Assembly: GCA_964035015.1 (NCBI GenBank)
Contig: OZ036003.1
Span: forward strand, 5,499,754-5,563,753
DNA: 64,000 nt
Origin: Corallium rubrum
Lineage: Eukaryota > Cnidaria > Anthozoa > Scleralcyonacea > Coralliidae
Direction of reading: 5' to 3'
Within the stretch, counting starts at the first letter, position 1; each line of letters opens with the position of its first letter. Shown here one piece after another: positions 5,399-58,446 of this stretch. The notes below the pieces were generated by a model. It did no database searches and was not told the origin of the DNA. It saw nothing but the letters and a program-made list of their open reading frames with translations. Both the position numbers and the translations under genes were made by a program.

Positions 5399-37938
<32,540 letters not shown>

Positions 37939-44313: not shown

Positions 44314-46596
44314 CAGGGGCGGATTTAGCATACAATCAGACCAGTCACGCGACTGACGTAAAAAATCACAAGAATAATTGCGCAATCAGACAATATTTTA
44401 ATCTCAAGAGTTCTTCGGAGAGATTGGGTTTCAAATTCGCTTTTATCTTAGTTTGCGAGTCAAGCAAACACCGAGCAGAGATGACCGGTGGTCAGCGTTC
44501 GCTTTGAAAGTTTTGCTGGATCTGCACCATGGCAACCACTTTTTTGCTGGATTTGCCTCAAACCTGATTGGCTCTCGCGTTGATTTCAAGGGTTTTGCTG
44601 GATCTGCCTCAAACCTGATTGGCTCTTGAGAGTTGAGTTCAAGCGTTTTGCTGGATCTGCAACCATTGCTGAGTCAGCTGAGTACCTCTCTAGCACGTAG
44701 CTACTTCATGTTAGACCTCATTATCCACGCAAAGCCTCTGCGGAGGAGAGAGGCTGAGTACATCGAAGCTTCTGTGTTTCAGTCATGAGTTCTGTGGTAA
44801 GCGTTTTCGAACGGGTTTTAGCTGCTTTTAACAGCAACGATGAAGACATACTTCGAACAATCTACGATGATTTGTTATCAAGTTTACACGATCGCCGATT
44901 TCTTTCAAGCGAGGAAAATTTAAACGCGATTGGAAGCATTTCGAGCTTCTTGAGCAGGAATTTTGGCGCGGAGTCATTTATTCCCAAGCATGCCAAACCA
45001 ATGAAGAAAGGAAACTGGTCATGCACTGCTGTAAGGTAAGTTAAGGTCGTCTTGTTTCATTTCAAATCTACAAACAGTCTAGTGTCGAATACATGTGTTT
45101 TTATCCAGTTTCAATATCGTACTATAATATCATTTTGCGTCCTAGTGAAGTCTGAGTTCAGAGTTCAGACATTATTCAGCATGACGGCATTAGCATATTT
45201 CACGCTTACCAACCAGCAGCTCTTGTATGTGAATTTGGAATGAAGGATCAATGAATTGATTCTTAAGGCAAGGTTTAGTCCGACTTTAAATTTTATCGAA
45301 CCTTTCTCTTCATGATTTTGAAATGAATACTGTTTACTTTTCAACTTATTTGTTTATAATCTTGCTCTGACGAAGATATATAAGATAACATATAATTTAT
45401 TAACAGATCGAACATGTCACAAATCAATTACTCAGGCGTTTAATATTGGTTTTAAATATTTGTTTAGATCTGAAGCTACTGGCAATTGTCTTTACAGCTC
45501 AATTTCGTTGGTATTGGTAGGTAACAATACCCTTGTTGATGATTTGAGAGTGTTGACATGCATTGAGCTTTTCCTCCATGCTAATTTTTATTCAAACCAT
45601 CCATGTTTCTTCGCTGCTGTTGCTGAGCATCAGGAAGATTTTGGTAGAAGTTTAAATAACCTTTTACCTTTATCAGTTTCCTTTGAATGCTTAGATTCAG
45701 GGTTGTCTGGGGATGAGCTAGTGAAGAAGGGGGCTATAGTTAATTGTGGTAATAATAAATGGTCATCTTTTCTCTGTATTCTTGGTCTTTCTTCTGTTCT
45801 TAACAGAAATATAGTTTCCTACTATCCAGATTGTGGAGACCATAGGTGTAAGTTATTGTTTAATCGTAAAGTTAAACCTCGTTCTCCTCTGAAAGCGGTA
45901 CCAGTAGTAGATAACATTCATATTCTATTCTGTGTTGATGGTTTGGTAAAGTCTGGTGATAAATTCAAACCTAACCATTTTGTTCCGTTACTTTTTTGTC
46001 CAACTGGTCAAAAAAGAAAACAGTCTGAACATCCAACCTCAAGCAAAGTCCTAAAGAAAACCTCATTCCAGTCTGGTAAAAATTCTAAAAATGTCAAACA
46101 AAAATTTTCCAGCTTTTTCCCTGGCGAAACAGCCAATTTTTTATACTACAATACAATGAGGTTATGAGACCAATAATTATATATATATCTACTGTTTATC
46201 CGATTTTCTCCCCTAATTTATGGAGAAAATTACACACTAAATAACAGACTATGACAAGGTCTTTGATACATTGAATAGTTAATTTTTTTAAAGCATGGGT
46301 GTTCGCGCCTGTCTCGTTCAGCTAACTAATATTTTAATTAGCTTTGTAAATATATAGTGAGTGTAATTTTCTCAGTTTAAATGAAAATCTTTTGTAAAAA
46401 TGATAAAATGTGCTATTAAAAATATGCTTTAAAACTTAACAAAGTTGGCTCAAATATGCTGTCAGATCACGGGAAATGCCATTTTAGAGACCCAGATTTC
46501 AAAAATATTCCGGGGGGGCATGCCCCCGGACCCCCCCCCCTACATATATGGACCACATATGTGACTGACATTTCCAAAATCCTAAATCCGCCCCTG
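44314..46596 (+). mobile_element. Transposon-like unit with 15-bp perfect inverted ends carrying an OTU-like gene
   Basis: The left end CAGGGGCGGATTTAG starts at 44314. Its exact complement CTAAATCCGCCCCTG ends at 46596. This is a typical hAT-style terminus. The region before the right end (gatcacgggaaatgccattt, then G- and C-runs) resembles the remnant at about 3570-3640, which supports a dispersed element end. The only gene inside is the two-exon OTU-like CDS at 44785-46167; no transposase is visible in 2.3 kb. No exact 8-bp target duplication is seen (flanks ggagaatt and tgagatgg). Confidence 0.6.
44785..46167 (+). CDS. OTU/vertnin-like cysteine-protease-type protein
   Basis: There are two exons, 44785-45035 (donor AAG|gtaagt) and 45468-46167 (acceptor tgtttag), joined in phase 2 to give 316 residues. 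Residues 1-84 are helical and unassigned. Residues 85-260 look like an OTU-fold domain: ATGNCLYSSIS, with a candidate nucleophile at Cys91, and NHFVPLLF, with a candidate His at about 254. The usual Asp two residues before the Asn-Cys is Thr here. The middle (KWSSFLCILGLSSVLNRNIV) resembles vertnin-like proteins that are abundant in cnidarian genomes. The C-terminus is Lys/Ser-rich, perhaps nuclear. If active it would cleave ubiquitin-type conjugates, but activity is unproven. A variant poly-A signal ATTAAA lies near 46415. The gene lies inside the inverted-end unit 44314-46596. Confidence 0.75.
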
Positions 46597-49383
46597 TGAG
46601 ATGGTAAACCCGCTCCCACTTGGGTTTACCGCTTCCCTAATTATTAAGAACGACTAGGGAGGCTAAAGAATGCGTTGTTTCTGCAAATATGTTGGATCAT
46701 AGTCCCTAGAATTATATTGTCTGGAGACGCGGCGAACATCAAAGCGGTTAACAATAAGCTACAATTTAGGTTGAGGGTGGCAAATAAGGTGCACAATCTT
46801 TTGTTTTACGTTCATTAATATTTATAAAGCAACGATGCTATTGGTTGATTGCTTCATTATACCAAAAATACAATGTGTTCAGCAAGCGTTAAGGTAAAAT
46901 AAGGTGCACAAACGTGAACAAAAACCTAGAACAAAGACTTTGGCCGCGTTTCCAGACAATTTATTTCTAGGGACTGGTTGGATGCAGGTCAAGGGTTATC
47001 GCAACCTCGTCCCCAGGGCCATTTGTGGGCCAAGATGGCGGCCAAAAACAATGGCGGGAACAAATGGCCCTGGCTCATTTTTGACTCGGCCCAGGCTTCA
47101 CGAAGTTTATCGCGCCTAGTCAGGCTCATTTTTTTTCTGAATATTTTATAGTTCAGCTTGACTGACCCAAACTGAAAACAATCAAAACATTCATTTCCAA
47201 ATACATTGTCGAATTATTAAAATAGATACACTTTTAATAAATATCTGTAAATCCTTATTATTTATCATTTGCTTCACCGTTGTACCAAATTCGCAAGAAA
47301 CTGGATTGCCATTGTCTGGCCGGGCCGCCTTGTTTTCGTAAGTTTTCGGTGGATTCAATTCAGCGTTTTGAAAAACATTTAGGCCTCGTTTCGTCGAGAA
47401 CTCTTGTTTGAAAAAAGCCTGCTTCTTAATGGCCAAACATGTAAATTCTGCCCTGTGGTGTACTTTCCTTTCGCAGCCAAAATACTTTTTGACTTTGTTC
47501 ACCAAGTCTTTCGTTCGCCCGATTTAGAAAACACACTGAATTGCCGTCCCATGGACTTCGTTGTATGGCAGCCAGGGCACAGAGACGACACGACCCATCA
47601 TTACATATTCTTCCGACGTTTTCACGGGTGTTTCGCCAGCTTTCTTCACATTTTCATTCATTTCGAAGTTGTTTTTTAACAGCCGGCAATTCTGAATATA
47701 ATTTGAGCCCAAAAAATAAAATGCCCGCGAGTTAGCCTACCGCCCACCTCGTTTCCACCAATCAGAATACCTAAAACATCCAATGTTATCTCGACCAATC
47801 AAATGTGGTGATAGCTCAGCCTGTGCCAGGGCCATTTGTTCTTGGCCGCCATCTTGGCCCAGCCCCCACAAATGGCCCTGGGGACGAGGTTGGGGTTATC
47901 GCCCACGCGAAACAATTACTACAATTGGGAATGTTTTAATATTGCTCCTTTAATATTGGACAATTTACCATTTTGAGAAAAAGGAGTAACCATTTTGAAC
48001 ATACACCATCATTTCTGTTTATAACCAACAAGTCTGGCCTGTGGGAGTCGTTCTTACAAATTTCCCACGTTTGTACTCGGCAGGATTTGTTTGTATGTTT
48101 AATTACTATAGTGAAAATGGTTTTGATAATTATGCAAAGTCTTGCATCAGACCACCGGCCACTGGTGTAATTACCAAGCAGAGTAAAACTGAACATGCCA
48201 ACTATTTAAATCTATTGCGGGTTTTCCGCCTTTCGTGTTTCCCGCCTCTCGGGATAACCCCCTCCCTCAAAACCCCCTCCCCACCCCCCCCAAACAACCG
48301 TCTGCTGCGCAGGCTATTTGAGGCCTGGACCTCTCCCTGTGCTGAATAAAATAGTCTGGCGTTAGCCAGAATAAAATACTAAAGACTCGTGTGTTAAAAA
48401 GGTTTTGATTGCGGTGTTCCAACGAGTTATACGAATTAGGAGGTTGCATGTCTGGTTTAATAGCCATTTGTCTAGCACGTCATATATGGTTCTGGAAATT
48501 GCTGCATGTGGTGGGGCATAGGTACCCCCGCCCATGTGTGCATTTGTCGCATATTTATAAGATTTGTTGGATATTCATAGCTATAGGGCTATCCCTGACC
48601 TCAAAAGGCGAATTTCCGCCACTGATAACTTGTATAGTAATCATTGTATTAAATTGTCTAGTTTAGGTAAAAATGTGTGAATATTAAAGAGCGGGTTTTA
48701 CTGGCAATGTTATATATATATTCGGAGTTTACCCAGACGAACGCTAGTGTGTTTAATACTATTGTAGCCTGCAGGAGAGAGGTACAAAGTAGAAACATAA
48801 TTCGCCCGTTATAGACCCTTTGCACTTAACCCTTGGTGGAGGAAAAATGCTTCTAATAAACAATGACATTTTCATTGATTTTTCACTCTATTGAACTGCT
48901 GAACTTTGAAGTTGTCCTCCAGATCGGCCGTTTTGACGTCATGTGCAAAGCTTCTATTGCGAAATTTTCGTCTTACAATGCAGCATGTCCTAGCCTACGC
49001 ATAGACGCTCTTAATTAATCCCCAGTTGTTTGGGATCTGGGACGGGCGCCTGCACGCAGGCTATCCACTTGTGTACTTTTGTGAATTACGACCATGCAGA
49101 GATGCTCAAACTACATATATTAAGTAATAACAATACGCCTTAGCCTTTTCCCGTCCGTGGGTTTCCCCTGGGACCAGTGAAATCGTTTGGCATTAGTCAG
49201 AGTAAAATACATAACTAACATAAGACTAGAAGCGGGTTGTTTTGATTGGAACCATTACCAACACTAATGTTTTAATATAGATAAGAATTAATAGAGATAC
49301 AGTATACGTAGCGTCATTTGAACGACTTTAATGCAACGTTACTTCCTTATTCTTTTTATTTAGATTATTTTTTGGAAGCTACA
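46597..49383. other. Intergenic region with a large inverted-end element
   Basis: About 46725-46980 holds diverged family B MITE sequence. About 46990-47895 is an element whose ends (aacctcgtccccagggccat and atggccctggggacgaggtt) are inverted copies, with internal aagatggcggcc/ggccgccatctt words. Its minus strand carries two open stretches (47712-47524 and 47505-47191) that could be a decayed captured coding sequence, but no domain is recognised. A hairpin TCTGGCGTTAGCCAGA lies near 48355, and a variant near 49190. Confidence 0.55.
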
Positions 49384-51886
49384 ATGAATGATTCAACAAA
49401 AAATACAACTAGATCCACAGACGAAATTGGTTCTTTACAGAGTAAAGAAAGTGAGCGATGTATTATCATTATTTTACCAACAACATCGCGCAATTTTTAT
49501 GTATCACAAATATCTCATTCTATTTCTGAAACAATAACCAAAGAGCACGCAGATATCTTACAACAGCCAATGCAACATGGTAATGTCTTGGTATCACTAA
49601 CACGTGGTCTACTGGCTGGTATCTTGATTGTACAACTACTGGACACAGTCATAAAAGTCACTTTTCAAAACCTCGCAGTTGCCGCAAGCTCTTTAAAAGA
49701 GGGCCACTCCATGACCATCCCTTGTGAGTGTAACAATGTTTTTACGATCATAGAAGATATTCTGCGTTCAGCCAACATTCAATTCTTAACATTTCGACTA
49801 TGCCGTGGAAATGCAAGCCTGACTTGCGGAACGACAACGAAGGATATTCCTATTGGCGAAATTCATCGCCTAGAGGTGCTTGTGGAAAAACTAGGAAGCT
49901 ACAAGGACGCCATAAGTAATTTATTAGGCAGGACAACTGGGCGCATAATGAACACCAGAGGGGCTGAAGCAGCTGCAAGCCATGTGGTTGCTCTGAGTGA
50001 TCAAGAATTCCTACGAGAACTTAATGAACTAAGATACCAACATCAGCAAACTGTCAACGAGTTGAATGCAATAAAAGATAAACTGTGTGGAAGTAATAGA
50101 ATGATACAAAATGGAGTTGATAATCAATCATACTCTGAGGTAGTTCAACCATTACAAGAACAACAAAATTCAGTTGCTACTGCAGAATCAACTTCAAGTT
50201 CTACACTAACAAGTGATGCAGTGTCTCGCAGATATCCTTTGCTAACCATGTTACACTGTATAGCAGAACGCTTACTGTTGATTGACTGGGTAAATCTGCG
50301 CGATCACATTGCAAAGTATGTTCCTATCAGAGTACTTGAAAATACTCAAAATGGAATTAAACTTTTTGAGGAACTCGTAAAAAGAAATTTAATCAGTGAT
50401 GGAAATTTTGATTTTATTCGAAATGCATTTTACGAAATTCAACGCATAGACTTAGTTCATTTGATTGATTGTGTTCAAGATGGTGATTATAGATTGTTGA
50501 CCGAGCAGCAAACGAGGAGGAGTGGGTCTCGCGATACCGCTGTACCCAATGGATTGCCTGCTCCTCCTCGGCAAAAAATGCGAGATTTAACCTTGGGTGG
50601 AGACCCAGAAGCAAGATATGACAGCAACTACACCAGAAGCTCACCAGACCCAGCAACAAGTGGGGATAGCCGTGACGAGAGGGATAGTGGTGTATTACAG
50701 CGCAAGTACAGAGATGTACCTCAAGGTTTCAAACTATCCCCATCGTACCCTGTTCAAGAAAATGTCAATACGACCACGACAACCGCCGAGAGTAGTACGA
50801 GTCACGAGGGCACTTCGACTGATTCCGACAGTCGCCGAACAGAGCAAGCTGGTGGTCCCGATTGTGATACATTGACGCGGAATCGGGAACCCGAGAATCT
50901 TAACTCCGAGAGTGCTAATTCCCAGGGTGTTAGTTCCGAGGTCGCCCGTTCCGAGGGTGCGCAGTCCGGGGTTGCTACTGCGTGGGTAGAAAACCCGGAG
51001 TGGTCATGTGAACATTATGACAGATATTGTGACGTGCAGTTCAGTTGCTGTGACAACCAGTTCTGGCCTTGTCATCGTTGCCATAACGCCAATAGTTCTT
51101 GCAGCACGAGAAAACTTCGTTCTCGAGACATTAAAAAGTTAAAATGTAAACGATGTGGAAAAATCCAAGAGGTACGGTCTTTTTACAACCTTTTTTTCTG
51201 TATGGTAGTTGTATCAAGTAAATATTGAATGGTCTATCACTTGTGATGGTGATTTTCTTGATATCTGGTTATATTAATAGTTCTTGTGGTAAAATGGTAG
51301 TGGTAATGGTGCTTGTACATACAGCAGTCCTTGGTACAGGGATGGTTATAGTCAGTGGGGTGATATTGATGGTGGTTGTTGTTACGGTAATATCCGCATG
51401 ACAATAGTACTGAGCTCAGAAATGGCAATTTTAATAGTCATAGCTTCTGTGCATGTGCATAGGACAGTCGCACGATGTTGCGCGCACATCATTTTGATAG
51501 GCCATACGCATAAAAACGTGGCCAATACTAAACGAAATTTAACTATTTTTAAAGATAGAAATAATTCTTAATGCTAATATCTTCAAAATTGTCGAATTTC
51601 TTTTATTTAGCACATTTGTCATGCTTGTAGTGCGCCAAAATTACACCTGTGGCTTCCGCCAAAATAATGCGTGCGCATGATCGTGCAACTCGCGTGTATA
51701 TTTTACAGTTTTAGTAATCCAGGTTATCGTATAACAGCGTTGGTAATACAATAATAATAGTTACGTAATGGTTATAGTATTGGTAATGGAAATGTACCTG
51801 CCTGGTTATCAGGTTTAAAAATCGGGTACAGTCTACACGCAGGCTAAATGGTACCATGCATATTAAAGTAATTGTTATGGTGTTGG

Positions 51887-51936
<50 letters not shown>

Positions 51937-52455
51937 CCAATGTGTTACGTTTGTAGAAGATTGAAGAGTGCTCAATACCTGGAGTTTGGTAGAGCGGAAT
52001 AACGCACGCGATGGATGAACGTCACACGTCAGCGAACCGTTAACCATAGATAATGGAAGGGGAACTGGATAGGAAACTTCAAACGAGGTTAAAGAACCGG
52101 AAACGTTGTTTGCACAACTTGCTATGGTAATTACACACTTATAAGCAGCTAATGCACCTATTGCTGAAATTAGACAAAAGTGTAATATCACTTAAGTTCA
52201 GCAGTGTCTGATTTTAGCCATGTGGGACCACCCATTAAGTGCATTGCCCGCTTATAAGCGTAGAATTACCATAGCAAGTTATGCAAACATCGTTTCCGGT
52301 TTCGTAAGTTTCCTATCCAGTTCCCCTTCCATTATCTATACGTTAACGAGTTAGCGTCATCACACAATGAACTGAGTCAATCACATACAGTTGCCTGAAG
52401 ATCGTCTCAAGACGTGAGACTGAGTAGCAACGACTATATTTTAGGATTTAAACTG

Positions 52456-52523
<68 letters not shown>

Positions 52524-53980
52524 GAGTTTATATATAGTTAATTTGTTTGGTTAATGGGTTGACAACATTAATAGTAACATTTTCACTATTATAATCATCG
52601 TAATAACTAGAAACGATAAAGAAACTTAGAATGGTTATACTCACAGCTGGCTTTTATTAATAGTAACGCTATTAGTTTTAATGTTTAAGTTCTGATTTAT
52701 GTTTAATTTTAGTTCCCCCAGAACTCAGCCCACTGTGTTCAATGCAACATAAAGTTTTCTGACTACTTTTGTCCTATTTGTCAACATCTGACGGGAACAG
52801 TTAATCACCCATTCCACTGTGAGAAATGTGGTATTTGTAGGTAGGTGAAAAAATAGAAATATAGAGATATGTTTAATATGAACTCTAAAGTTAACGGTTT
52901 ACACTAGTTCGTGTTTTTAGGTAAAGAAAACCAACAGTTTCAGCACATTCTATTGTTAGAATATTTGAATGAAAATATATACCTATAGTTCTTTTTTTTT
53001 ATCATGTTTGCTCATAGATAATGGAAGGGGAACTGGATAGGAAACTTACGAAACCGGAAACGATGTTTGCACAACTTGCTATGGTAATTCTACGCTTATA
53101 AGCGGGCAATGCACTTAATGGGTGGTCCCACATGGCTAAAATCAGACACTGCTGAACTTAAGTGATATTACACTTTTGTCTAATTTCAGCAATAGGTGCA
53201 TTAGCTGCTTATAAGTGTGTAATTACCATAGCAAGTTGTGCAAACAACGTTTCCGGTTTCGTAAGTTTCCTATCCAGTTCCCCTTCCATTATCTATGGTT
53301 TGCTTTAACGTTATTTTCTGTTATCTCGCAGAGTACATGGTGATCGATCATTTCATTGCGATGTTTGTGGTGTATGTCTCGATATTAATCTTCAAGGAAA
53401 TCACAGATGTCGGGAGGGATCAGCTCACGATGAATGCTGTATTTGTTTCGAGGTAAACTTAGTATTCCTCTTGTCGCCAATCTTAATAAAACAGATTTTG
53501 GAATAACGGCCGCTCAACGGACAATGTCCGGTCAAAATGAGTCAAAATCTTGCCTGACACATGGTCATTTTGACCGCTCATATTAAGTACGATTGATTGC
53601 ACTTCCAGATAAGTATTTTGTCCTAAAATCGCACTAGTCCTTGAGAGCAGAATTTCTATCTTTCTTTTTAACTTTCTAAACATCATATGTTTCGTCTTTA
53701 GGATGCTTTCACTGGCTGTCAAATTCTTCCTTGTTCACACAAGGTTCACAAAGACTGTGCTGCGATGATGCTTCGTAATGGAATGTATGAATAGTTTTTA
53801 TATTAATGTACACCCCATTATTCCTTAATTGTTAGTGTGAGAACAGTACTTAGCATTTCATTTTGTGGCCTTTTACTTATACACTAAATTTAGGAATTTA
53901 TTGATCTTTTTTAAAGAACGAAGTGTCCAATCTGTCGAGAAAGTTTTGCACACAGAATTGGACACCGCCCAATATCGTAG
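49384..53980 (+). CDS. DED-like domain fused to RCHY1/Pirh2-type CHY-CTCHY-RING E3 ubiquitin ligase
   Basis: Five exons with matching phases, 49384-51171, 52713-52840, 53332-53452, 53702-53784 and 53917-53980, give 727 residues. Residues 1-270 are unassigned. Residues about 284-370 look like a death effector domain: VLENTQNGIKLFEELVKRNL and then IQRIDL, matching the RxDL signature. A Ser/Thr-rich linker follows. From about 540 come a CHY zinc finger (WSCEHYDRYC, FSCCDNQFWPCHRCH, CKRCGKIQ), a CTCHY finger (HCVQCNIKFSDYFCPIC, FHCEKCGICR, FHCDVCGVC, NLQGNHRC) and a C3H2C3 RING-H2 (CCICFE, LPCSHKVHKDC, CPICRE). The order is that of RCHY1, an E3 ligase. The C-terminal zinc-ribbon domain usual after the RING is absent, since the protein ends 13 residues after the final RING Cys. 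The ATG at 49384 is the first in frame after a probable acceptor at 49363-49364. Role in cell-death or immune signalling is inferred. Confidence 0.85.
51892..51934. repeat. (TA)n microsatellite in the DED-RCHY1 intron 1
   Basis: This is a run of about 21 TA dinucleotides. A second run of about 32 units lies at 52458-52521 in the same intron. Neither affects the predicted splice sites. Confidence 0.95.
52046..52340. mobile_element. Palindromic element, family A copy 2
   Basis: The inverted ends are atagataatggaaggggaac and gttccccttccattatctat, with flanking gttaac words. It is about 295 bp and lies in intron 1 of the DED-RCHY1 gene. It is very similar to 53014-53296 and to the outer unit at 20450-21389. 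Confidence 0.8.
53014..53296. mobile_element. Palindromic element, family A copy 3
   Basis: It has the same ends and internal words (aaaccggaaacgatgtttgc, tgggtggtcccacatggcta) as the copy at 52046-52340. It lies in intron 2 of the DED-RCHY1 gene, about 35 nt upstream of exon 3. Confidence 0.8.
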
Positions 53981-54029
53981 ATATCTCGCGCATAACTACC
54001 GCATTGGAGAGGAAAAGACAACACACGAT

Positions 54030-54548
54030 CAAACAGGTCATGGTAGCATCAAACAGGACATCGCAGGACCAGATAGGACATAGCAGAATCAAACAGGACA
54101 TCGCACGACCGGATATGACTAGCAGAATTAAACAGGTCATGGCAGGATGGAATAGGACACGGCAGGATGGAATAGGACACGGCAGGATGGAATAAGGCAT
54201 GGCAGGATCGAATAGGACATGGCAGGATGGAATAGGACATACGAACAGGAGATGGCAGGATCGAATAAGGCGCGGCAGGATCGAGTAGGACATAGCAGGA
54301 TGGAATAGGACATAGGATCGAACAGGAGATGGCAAGGATCGAATAAGGCATGACATGATGGAATAGGACATAGCATGATGGAATAGGACATAGGATGGAA
54401 CAGGGGATTGCAGGATCGAATACGGCACGGCAGGATCGAATAGGACATAACAGGATGGAATAATGCATTGCAGGATTGAATAGGAGATGGCGGGATGGAA
54501 TGGGAGATTGCAGGATCGAATAAGGCACGGCAGGATTGACTAGCTATG
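54030..54548 (+). repeat. About 20-bp minisatellite just downstream of the DED-RCHY1 stop codon
   Basis: Degenerate tandem units of the form ggcaggatggaataggacat run from about 50 nt after the TAG at 53980, so they may lie in the 3' untranslated region. Because the unit is near 20 bp, the minus strand stays open in all three frames (YSILPCPIPSCHVLF-type peptides). Those frames are not genes. Confidence 0.85.
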
Positions 54549-56078: not shown

Positions 56079-57999
56079 GTGTGAAGTATGCACCACATTT
56101 CGATTCAAGTATTCAACACTTCAATCCGTATTTTTTACCGAAGCATAACATAAGGTCTCACATGCAACCTAACGTCTCACATTTTGCCAGTAGCCTGAGT
56201 AAACGCCTTACCCAGGCGTCTTGTTTTTCTAAAAAAAACACGTTGTCTTAGTCGAGAAAATCAAAGCTAAAGTTTATGTAAATCAAGAGGAATCTGCATC
56301 ACATATACAGACACTCATTAAACATGGATTTTCTTAGTGTTTTCCTCATGAATTATTTCCTCATGTCGGTGGTTTCATACCTGATAAAAATTATCGACGT
56401 CAGAAAGAATACTAATGAACATAGACCTTTCTCGAGACTCTGTGGCCATAGGGCCTCAAAAAAGCCCGTTCGAGCAACCTGCGCCAGAACCCACTCCTTC
56501 CCTATATTACTGGTGCTCAAGGCCTGATTATTTTTTTTCCATATCAGGCCTGGCGCAGCATTGCAGTGCGATACAAGCGTCTGCACGCAGGCTAGCAGTG
56601 TTCATAAACGTAAAACAAAAGATTGGTGCACTTTCAGGCCAACCTCAACATAAATCACAGCTCATAGACGAAATCGGAGTTTCGACTGCGCATACAATCT
56701 GAGTCGGGCTGATAAAACGTAGTTCATTTATAACATGAGGCTGAAGCAGCCGTAGTAAACATAACACTTCTGATTTCAGAAACTTTTTAATGTTTAGGTA
56801 TTCTATAAGGATAAAATTTGCTTATCTATTATCCTTGACAATAATCCTAAACGTAGTATCTAAAAATAATGAACCCAAAACATGAAAAAACAGTCCCAGC
56901 CTATGTTATCTTCCCGTTATGCTTTAATAGACACGATGTAATTTGCATTGGGGCCCAAATTAAAAATGAAACTAATTTGCATGTGGGCCTAAATGAAACT
57001 ACGATTTGGTGTATGGTTTAGCCACTTTGATGTTCACCATGACAAATGTTTTTCTGCCAAGTTTTACATGTAAGTTATGAGTTATATAAATATTTATTGC
57101 AATGAAATACACACGCCAACGCGAAGGCGGCACTGTTCAAGCTATTGTTTACTGTACTGTCTTTGATTTTCTTCTAAATGCCCACTAAAATTATTAGAAT
57201 AGTAATACAGTTGATGTTCTTAATCTTGGGCATAAATATGTCTTTTGGCCCTTCTCTGACAGGCCTCAACGTTCTAGAAGTTCCCGTCGTCTCAAGAACG
57301 TGAAATGCTCTCAATGATGTCTTGTGTAGAACGACGACGGCGTTCTCTTTGCTCTTGGGATTTTAAATTGCTCATTATCATTGTTTTGAATGAAAAATGC
57401 TATTGAATTCAATCGCCGTCCGTGGCTCTAAAACGCTTGTATGCTTAAGCTCTCTACTCTCCGATCCCAACCCTTGTCCCCGTCAATTACGTCACAGTAA
57501 GCTACTCGTCGGGTGGTTGTGCCTCTACAAATCAGTTTCCATGTCTTCAGGATGTGCCCTGCTAAGTTAGTTCAGAAGTCAGAACCCTCAAAACTGTGCA
57601 GGAAGCTGAATATGTTTTGTTTATAACCTTTACGACTCCTATATAATCGCCTTCCATACCGATTAACCCACAATAGCGATTGCCATTTGACCAATAAATA
57701 TGTTACGGTGTTGTTGTAATACCATAATTACTGTTTACGGTATTGTGAAAAACAAAGATTTTCCCTCGCCGACAACATAGAAGAGTTCATTCGCCGTCAA
57801 GCCTAATGCGAAGAAAACAACGGGGTGAAAAGCAAAACGAATTGATTATCACAGAAGATTATCAAAACACAAAAGCTATGGAATGCAATCACGGTGGGAG
57901 ATGCATGAATTTCATTTTCTAAATTGACTGGGCAAAGCCACGTCGGTAATTAAATATTCAGACACATATCGAAAGAACAACCATCTTCTTTACCGAATC

Positions 58000-58446
58000 A
58001 TGTCTTCGCTGAGTGATAGAGAGTTGGATGCTCTGAAGGATGCTATCGATCTGTATGATACTGTCGGAGACGGCAAAGTCGATTCTCTATCCCTGGCAGA
58101 CGTTCTACGGGGTATTGGAGAAAACCCGACGGAGAGTGATGTACAGAAGTTTATAAAGCAAGTCGATCCGGTTGGGAATAAACGAGTATCGTTCGAAGAA
58201 TTGATTCCAATTGCTCTCTCGTGCAAGCAGAGAGCGCGAAAGGTCCAAGCTCAAGAATTCATCGATTGTTTGCGGGTGTTTGATCGCGACTGTTCGGGAA
58301 ATATAAGCAGTGCCGAGCTACGCCAAGTGTTGACAACATTAGGCGACAAGTTGTCCGCGGACGATGTCGATATGTTAACATCTGGTCTTGAACACAAGGG
58401 ACAGCTGAATTACGAAGAGTTTGTGAGAAATGTCATGTCTGGGTAG
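58000..58446 (+). CDS. Myosin essential (alkali) light chain, intronless
   Basis: This is a single uninterrupted frame of 148 residues with four EF-hand units, the usual length for essential light chains, which clamp the first IQ motif of the myosin neck. The C-terminal half is characteristic: FIDCLRVFDRDCSGNISSAE, LRQVLTTLGDKLS, MLTSGLEHKGQLNYEEFVR and NVMSG at the end. Loop 1 (about residues 20-31) and loop 2 (about 56-67) lack key ligands. Loop 3 (Asp95, Asp97, Ser99, Asn101, Glu106) has a complete canonical Ca2+ set. Loop 4 is degenerate. No introns are present, unlike the neighbouring genes, so a retrogene origin is possible. A calmodulin-like protein is the main alternative. The start is the first in-frame ATG, and a poly-A signal lies 240 nt downstream. 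Confidence 0.88.
   Translation: MSSLSDRELDALKDAIDLYDTVGDGKVDSLSLADVLRGIGENPTESDVQKFIKQVDPVGNKRVSFEELIPIALSCKQRARKVQAQEFIDCLRVFDRDCSGNISSAELRQVLTTLGDKLSADDVDMLTSGLEHKGQLNYEEFVRNVMSG

Follow-up and report, generated by a model that had tools for sequence, protein, structure and literature searches.

The question raised by this locus is whether a single gene of Corallium rubrum joins a death effector domain (DED) to a ubiquitin ligase of the RCHY1 (Pirh2) type and what such a protein might do. The gene lies at positions 49384-53980, on the forward strand, of a 64,000-nucleotide stretch of contig OZ036003.1 (positions 5,499,754 to 5,563,753; assembly GCA_964035015.1), hereafter the window, and its five exons encode 727 codons followed by a stop codon at 53978-53980. 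A sequence-only reading of the window had proposed one phase-consistent transcript of 727 residues in which a DED-like module is joined to a complete RCHY1 block. We conclude that the DED-CHY fusion at this locus is real, and that the gene probably encodes a RING-type E3 ubiquitin ligase whose zinc block, predicted to derive from RCHY1, has been retargeted by a DED docking module. The coordinates of the features are collected in Table 1.

The window gene and its domains

The five-exon model bore out the proposed transcript, with GT..AG borders at all four introns. Exon 1 sits in a stop-free frame of 638 codons (49312-51228), as compared with a longest frame of 226 codons in 100 simulated windows generated with the window's dinucleotide steps. 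Because the DED and residues 542-596 of the CHY finger are together in this single open exon, the fusion is independent of any splice guess. The sequence-only reading had taken the 51171/52713 junction as decisive for the fusion; this did not hold, the DED and half of the CHY finger being already joined upstream of it. A good splice acceptor is present 20 nucleotides (nt) before the ATG and suggests a further 5' exon upstream, in which case the N-terminus of the 727-residue protein may be incomplete. An upstream coding exon was not identified; six of eight forward frames of at least 60 amino acids (aa), from 46.9 kb to the gene, are without a domain above the Pfam cut-off.

Table 1. Features of the window gene, in window positions, and the DED of one related locus, in contig positions
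Feature	Position	Strand	Remarks
Likely splice acceptor	49362..49383	+	AG at 49362-49363, pyrimidine-rich tract, 20 nt before ATG
Coding exon 1	49384..51171	+	596 codons, 1,788 nt, one open frame; from the N-terminal region through DED and linker into the CHY finger (first half)
N-terminal domain	49462..49863	+	aa ~27-160; conserved in same-exon paralogs; no known family
Death effector domain	50245..50475	+	aa 288-364; Pfam PF01335 E = 2.1e-10; caspase-8 structure E = 1.6e-7
Low-complexity linker	50500..50994	+	aa 373-537; by composition; weakly constrained, dN/dS 0.58-0.77
CHY zinc finger, first part	51007..51171	+	aa 542-596; Pfam PF05495
Exon 2	52713..52840	+	End of CHY finger, start of CTCHY part
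Exon 3	53332..53452	+	Remaining CTCHY part, first RING zinc ligands
Exon 4	53702..53784	+	Middle of RING
Exon 5	53917..53980	+	Last RING ligands (CPICR), short tail, stop
DED of locus L013	C15:15963593-15963754		

The DED was placed by Pfam within the interval of about residues 284-370 given by the sequence-only reading, and the two motifs named there, NGIKLFEEL and RIDL, begin at residue 323 and occupy residues 354-357, respectively. The PF01335 match scored 41.1 bits on the window protein against a curated cut-off of 35.9, and the excised region matched with E = 8.3e-12. None of ten controls (nine shuffles and one reversal of the DED region) matched the DED; the two other matches that they returned had E-values of 0.14 and 0.19. 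Among solved structures the window DED matched FADD (1.6e-5) in addition to caspase-8, and the match to PEA-15 was not significant (E = 1.0). A profile built from the family of related DEDs described below matched caspase-8 (5.5e-13), FLIP (1.4e-8), FADD (8.3e-8) and PEA-15 (3.6e-7), with unrelated proteins appearing from E = 0.026 onward. The R and D of the RxDL motif are invariant in all 12 aligned family DEDs (of 16, four near-copies being left out of the alignment), as are D, G and D of the tail IDC..GDY. The E/D-RxDL charge triad is present in the window DED, its acidic partner D301 having been assigned by eye from the caspase-8 alignment.

Pfam also reported zf-CHY at residues 542-614 (3.1e-9) and RING_2 at residues 672-714 (9.2e-7), and with the DED all three domains singled out for a profile search in the sequence-only reading are above their curated cut-offs. 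Pfam gave no CTCHY finger; for that stretch the evidence is the match to RCHY1 structures, the C-terminal 191 residues of the window protein matching structure 7ynx with E = 1e-31. The CHY finger, CTCHY part and RING follow one another in the same order as in RCHY1, whereas the CHY match is preceded by 541 residues in the window protein and the matching part of the human chain begins at its residue 20. In the aligned part all 25 Cys and 8 of 13 His are kept, and the Cys/His pattern of the RING is complete (ligands assigned by pattern). The claim of a complete RCHY1 block thus stands for the CHY finger, the CTCHY part, the RING and the cysteine framework; it does not stand for the C-terminal domain, which appears to be missing, or for the polyalanine pocket, which is altered (see below).

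The gene family and its history

The C. rubrum genome (474,352,983 bases in 312 contigs) was searched for related domains, matches being accepted at E = 0.001 or better and the counts being lower bounds. At least 37 DED matches and at least 20 zf-CHY matches were found; a second DED query added 7 places, and with the DED of locus L013 a total of 45 DED places was counted. For fourteen of the 20 CHY matches a DED stands upstream on the same strand, at a distance of 0.3-3.5 kb, where random placement would give an expectation of 0.0002 per CHY match for a DED within 3.5 kb upstream, a figure that ignores copies arisen by duplication. In six of these 14 loci (the window and L009-L013) a single open frame runs through both the DED and the CHY finger. 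The same domain order thus recurs in paralogs of the window gene, in line with what had been proposed from the window alone. Many of the family loci, though not all, continue with CTCHY and RING exons, some of the stretches ending first or containing N. Neighbouring pairs or clusters of family loci are found on C53, at C8:42.5 Mb and at C25:7.3-7.5 Mb.

Two of the six CHY matches outside these pairs lie 12 and 23 kb downstream of a DED, L026 (C25:10129950) has the family zinc block with no DED seen, and C13:3122128 has a CHY finger without a match to the zinc block. Two CHY matches are of the RCHY1 type, C22:5849974 (L027) and C8:9598188 (L048). The former (positions 4972-5480 of L027) runs from CHY through RING without introns and with a frame jump between, as in a retrocopy, a pseudogene or an assembly error; the latter is an RCHY1-type gene in separate exons. 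Conversely, L019 and L020 are DED places of the family that lack a CHY match within 5 kb. Viral contigs scanned with the DED and with the zinc block, and prokaryote genomes scanned with exon 1, gave no relatives, as expected for an animal gene. The DEDs and caspase domains of the genome are those of an animal, and the single GFP-family exon detected in it, whose best structure matches are red and green fluorescent proteins (3.5e-20) of the DsRed type known from corals and related animals, suggests an anthozoan.

The closest relatives of the window protein are those of L009 (84% identical over 727 columns) and L010 (82% over 709 columns, without the last exon). In all three genes exons 2-5 measure 128, 121, 83 and 64 nt, and all four introns have GT/AG borders. 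The DEDs of the window, L009 and L010 pass the Pfam cut-off, and those of L011-L013 do not (24.5-26.9 bits versus 35.9); among ten family frames scored against PF01335, L009 and L010 passed by whole-protein score and the eight others did not.

Ratios of nonsynonymous to synonymous substitution (dN/dS) were estimated within this trio by the Nei-Gojobori method and are given in the order window-L009, window-L010, L009-L010. The lowest values were those of the CHY finger (0.09, 0.03, 0.08) and the DED (0.15, 0.16, 0.21), followed by residues 161-283 (0.40, 0.37, 0.31) and residues 27-160 (0.34, 0.47, 0.43); the linker gave 0.58, 0.77 and 0.75, and the first 26 residues gave 0.37, 1.28 and 1.10. 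Fisher tests for window-L009 and window-L010 gave p = 7.7e-6 and 2.7e-5 for the DED, 1.1e-3 and 1.9e-5 for the CHY finger, 4.5e-4 and 0.011 for residues 27-160, and 0.10 and 0.49 for the linker. The DED and the CHY finger are under purifying selection, the linker hardly so. In L011 (1103-3331) and L012 (1212-3506) the stretch that links the DED to the CHY finger is expanded into a long repeat of the GSNHTGS type.

Ahead of the DED, residues 1-263 scanned alone gave no Pfam match, and no solved structure matched the N-terminal domain convincingly. Three candidate likenesses were rejected: that of residues 156-221 to the NYN domain of MARF1 (E = 0.58) was lost with the family profile and in Pfam; that of L013 to Pox_VLTF3 (0.00032; 0.0015 at 18.8 bits, the cut-off being 25) was absent in five other members and is put down to chance; and for TRADD-N no PF09034 match was obtained in the N-terminal region of the window protein or of six aligned members by sequence-profile search, which leaves room for a remote likeness. 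A TRADD-N scan of the genome gave nine weak matches, none over the cut-off.

In a tree of DEDs, one branch sets the 16 family DEDs apart from 22 others (91/84; 92% of 200 bootstraps), and a CHY finger accompanies 14 of the 16 at no more than 3.5 kb, L019 and L020 being the two exceptions. The rows of this tree were gathered with the family-DED profile, three of the 25 other loci (L040, L042 and L044) are missing from it, and the family side includes L019 and L020; the tree therefore leans towards its result. A tree of zinc blocks separates eight family rows, L021 and L026 among them, from human RCHY1 and two RCHY1-type rows (100/99), one RCHY1-type row being 46% filled. The DED tree sets the six same-exon copies apart from the other ten; in the tree of zinc blocks these copies do not form a resolved clade. 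The simplest account would be that the fusion arose once and was then duplicated, in part within neighbouring pairs and clusters.

Docking, substrate pocket and proposed function

In the function that we propose, the DED would bring the ligase to DED-containing cell-death or innate-immune assemblies (caspase-8-, FADD- or FLIP-like, or another DED protein). The RING, in which the residue after the last zinc cysteine (human M187), the so-called linchpin position of RING domains, is R in the window protein, would pass ubiquitin from an E2 enzyme to proteins found there, and ubiquitination would either shut the complex off or build a signalling platform. Recruitment of caspase-8 or FADD via DED-DED contact would be plausible. 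Candidate partners in the genome are 14 caspase-domain matches (exon pieces counted) and the other DEDs, and in Acropora caspase-8 has two DEDs and interacts with FADD (PMC4715348).

Several observations weigh against a DED-retargeted ligase. The FL patch of helix 2, described as conserved among DED proteins (PMC4558505), is absent in the window DED, in which LRDHI aligns with caspase-8 LKFLS and D-H takes the place of F-L, and F25 of FADD is required for signalling (PMC11074299). The human FL motif supports caspase-8 self-filaments, yet it is dispensable for FADD-caspase-8 assembly (PMC11074299), and its loss in the window DED is therefore compatible with docking. Two structure models made without an alignment were of too low a quality for use (mean predicted local distance difference test scores of 35.4 and 52.4); the second, a single-sequence model of the DED, showed six helices followed by a short seventh one. 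In 8 of the 14 paired loci (L014-L018, L022, L023 and L025) the DED and the CHY finger are in separate frames, their join being read from order and distance; in 7 of 10 family frames the DED scored 24.5-33.3 bits, under the cut-off of 35.9; and two of eight zinc blocks compared (L021 and L026) have no DED nearby. Finally, the N-terminal region, which makes up more than one third of the protein, could be the real targeting part.

A wider version of the proposal, which we put forward only tentatively, would see in these genes an anthozoan-type family of innate-immune ligases parallel to TRIM, composed of a variable N-terminal sensor, a death-fold scaffold and a retargeted CHY-RING effector, descended from one fusion, represented at no fewer than 14 loci and attaching ubiquitin to invader or cell-death proteins. 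Alternatively, the DED might be an oligomerisation switch that self-assembles after the N-terminal domain has sensed a signal, clusters the RINGs and so activates the ligase. The N-terminal region differs between copies in the way a sensor or variable module would: its identity is 75-80% among the three close copies and falls to 23-27% in three more distant same-exon paralogs; coiled-coil-like sequence was also seen by eye ahead of the DED in L014, L016 and L017. However, the FL motif tied to caspase-8 self-filaments (PMC11074299) is the very element replaced by D-H, and we regard such a switch as unlikely, though the strongest of the competing explanations.

We consider it improbable that the protein is still essentially an RCHY1 ligase for C-degrons or p53-like substrates, to which the DED adds localisation only. 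The cysteine framework is intact and, in the degron groove, Y23, L92, I107 and R109 are unchanged in all eight members compared, with I or V at I110, as such a ligase would lead one to expect. However, only 7 of the 21 named positions of the polyalanine degron pocket (residue numbers and roles from PMC10148881) are the same in the window protein as in human, and human R41, R54, D94, Q99, S155 and A159 read H, S, G, P, G and C in all eight members. In human Pirh2, polyalanine binding is lost with R41A and reduced more than 6-fold with any one of R54A, D94A and Q99A (PMC10148881). The RCHY1-type copy L027 keeps R41, R54, D94 and Q99, with F at L92, and L048 shows CRFC, VRF and LFDDKDKGQ, read by eye as keeping the same four residues; S155 and A159 lie outside the comparison for these two.

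The C-terminal domain of RCHY1, which together with its N-terminal domain is reported to mediate p53 recognition (PMC10148881), appears to be absent from the window gene. The stop codon stands 14 residues past the last RING Cys, and no CxxC..CxxC pattern, the cysteine pattern being all that was looked for, was found by eye in the 15 forward frames with Cys that were listed between 53.9 and 57.9 kb. Similarly, in all seven paralog loci in which the last RING motif could be located (L009, L010, L012, L014, L018, L025 and L026) the frame ends within 23 residues after that motif, a count that assumes no further splicing beyond it. The altered degron pocket and the missing C-terminal domain would fit a substrate choice moved away from that of RCHY1 itself. 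The family may be viewed as a natural experiment in E3 retargeting, in which pocket residues were changed and a docking domain was gained, apparently both before the expansion.

An artefact or pseudogene, with exon 1 and the RING exons on different transcripts or the locus dead, is largely refuted and very improbable: a separate exon 1 transcript would cut the CHY zinc finger in two, the one open exon already holds the DED and half of that finger, two paralogs share the structure with the splice sites kept, and selection is purifying.

Surroundings and relation to known systems

Introns 1 and 2 of the gene contain mobile-element-like copies (52042-52339 and 53013-53300) that are 96% identical and in opposite orientation; the latter copy also forms an imperfect inverted repeat on its own, and a further, related one is present at 20445-20631. 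A 20-bp tandem repeat of 26 units (54027-54536) starts 47 bp past the stop codon. A frame 3 kb upstream of the ligase gene (45322-46164) has a weak likeness to OTU cysteine proteases (E = 2.9e-4, under the Pfam cut-off) and is possibly a deubiquitinase-like or transposon gene. Elsewhere in the window are a reverse transcriptase fragment (25201-25872; RVT_1, E = 1.7e-19), an open frame of 887 aa with uneven base use over codon positions and no Pfam family (35275-37938), and an open frame with EF-hand domains, calmodulin- or centrin-like (57928-58446).

E3 ligases with or near a death-fold docking part are known in cIAP1/2 (CARD plus RING) and CARP1/2, which differ in their death fold (a different one or none), in their zinc block and in having BIR or FYVE-like parts; for the window protein Pfam reported no BIR or FYVE-like domain. 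The family resembles caspase-8, FADD, FLIP and PEA-15 in DED sequence, in the R and D of RxDL invariant in its 12 aligned DEDs and in structure matches to all four, whereas the window DED differs from theirs in having no FL motif. Closer in principle are the DED/TRADD-N immune proteins of marine invertebrates, which are fused to TRIM E3, macro, PARP, HEPN and other domains (PMC8195603). The likeness lies in a lineage-specific expansion of death-fold proteins with exchanged effectors, ubiquitin ligases included, and with cnidarians among the animals covered; the difference is that TRADD-N is not detectable in the window family. Since those fusions include TRIM E3, the principle of death-fold proteins fused to E3 effectors is already known, and the DED-CHY-RING fusion is a new variant of it. 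The main text of PMC8195603 contains none of the terms CHY, RCHY1 and Pirh2, and no report of a DED-CHY/RCHY1 fusion was found among the top matches listed from the open-access literature; databases may hold such proteins under an RCHY1-like name.

In mammals, the ligases acting on caspase-8 and FLIP are CUL3, TRAF2 and ITCH (PMC4558505), separate proteins that are recruited, whereas in the window family docking domain and ligase are in one polypeptide. This would link death-fold signalling to ubiquitin by a short route in an early-branching animal, and suggests built-in tagging at cell-death or immune complexes.

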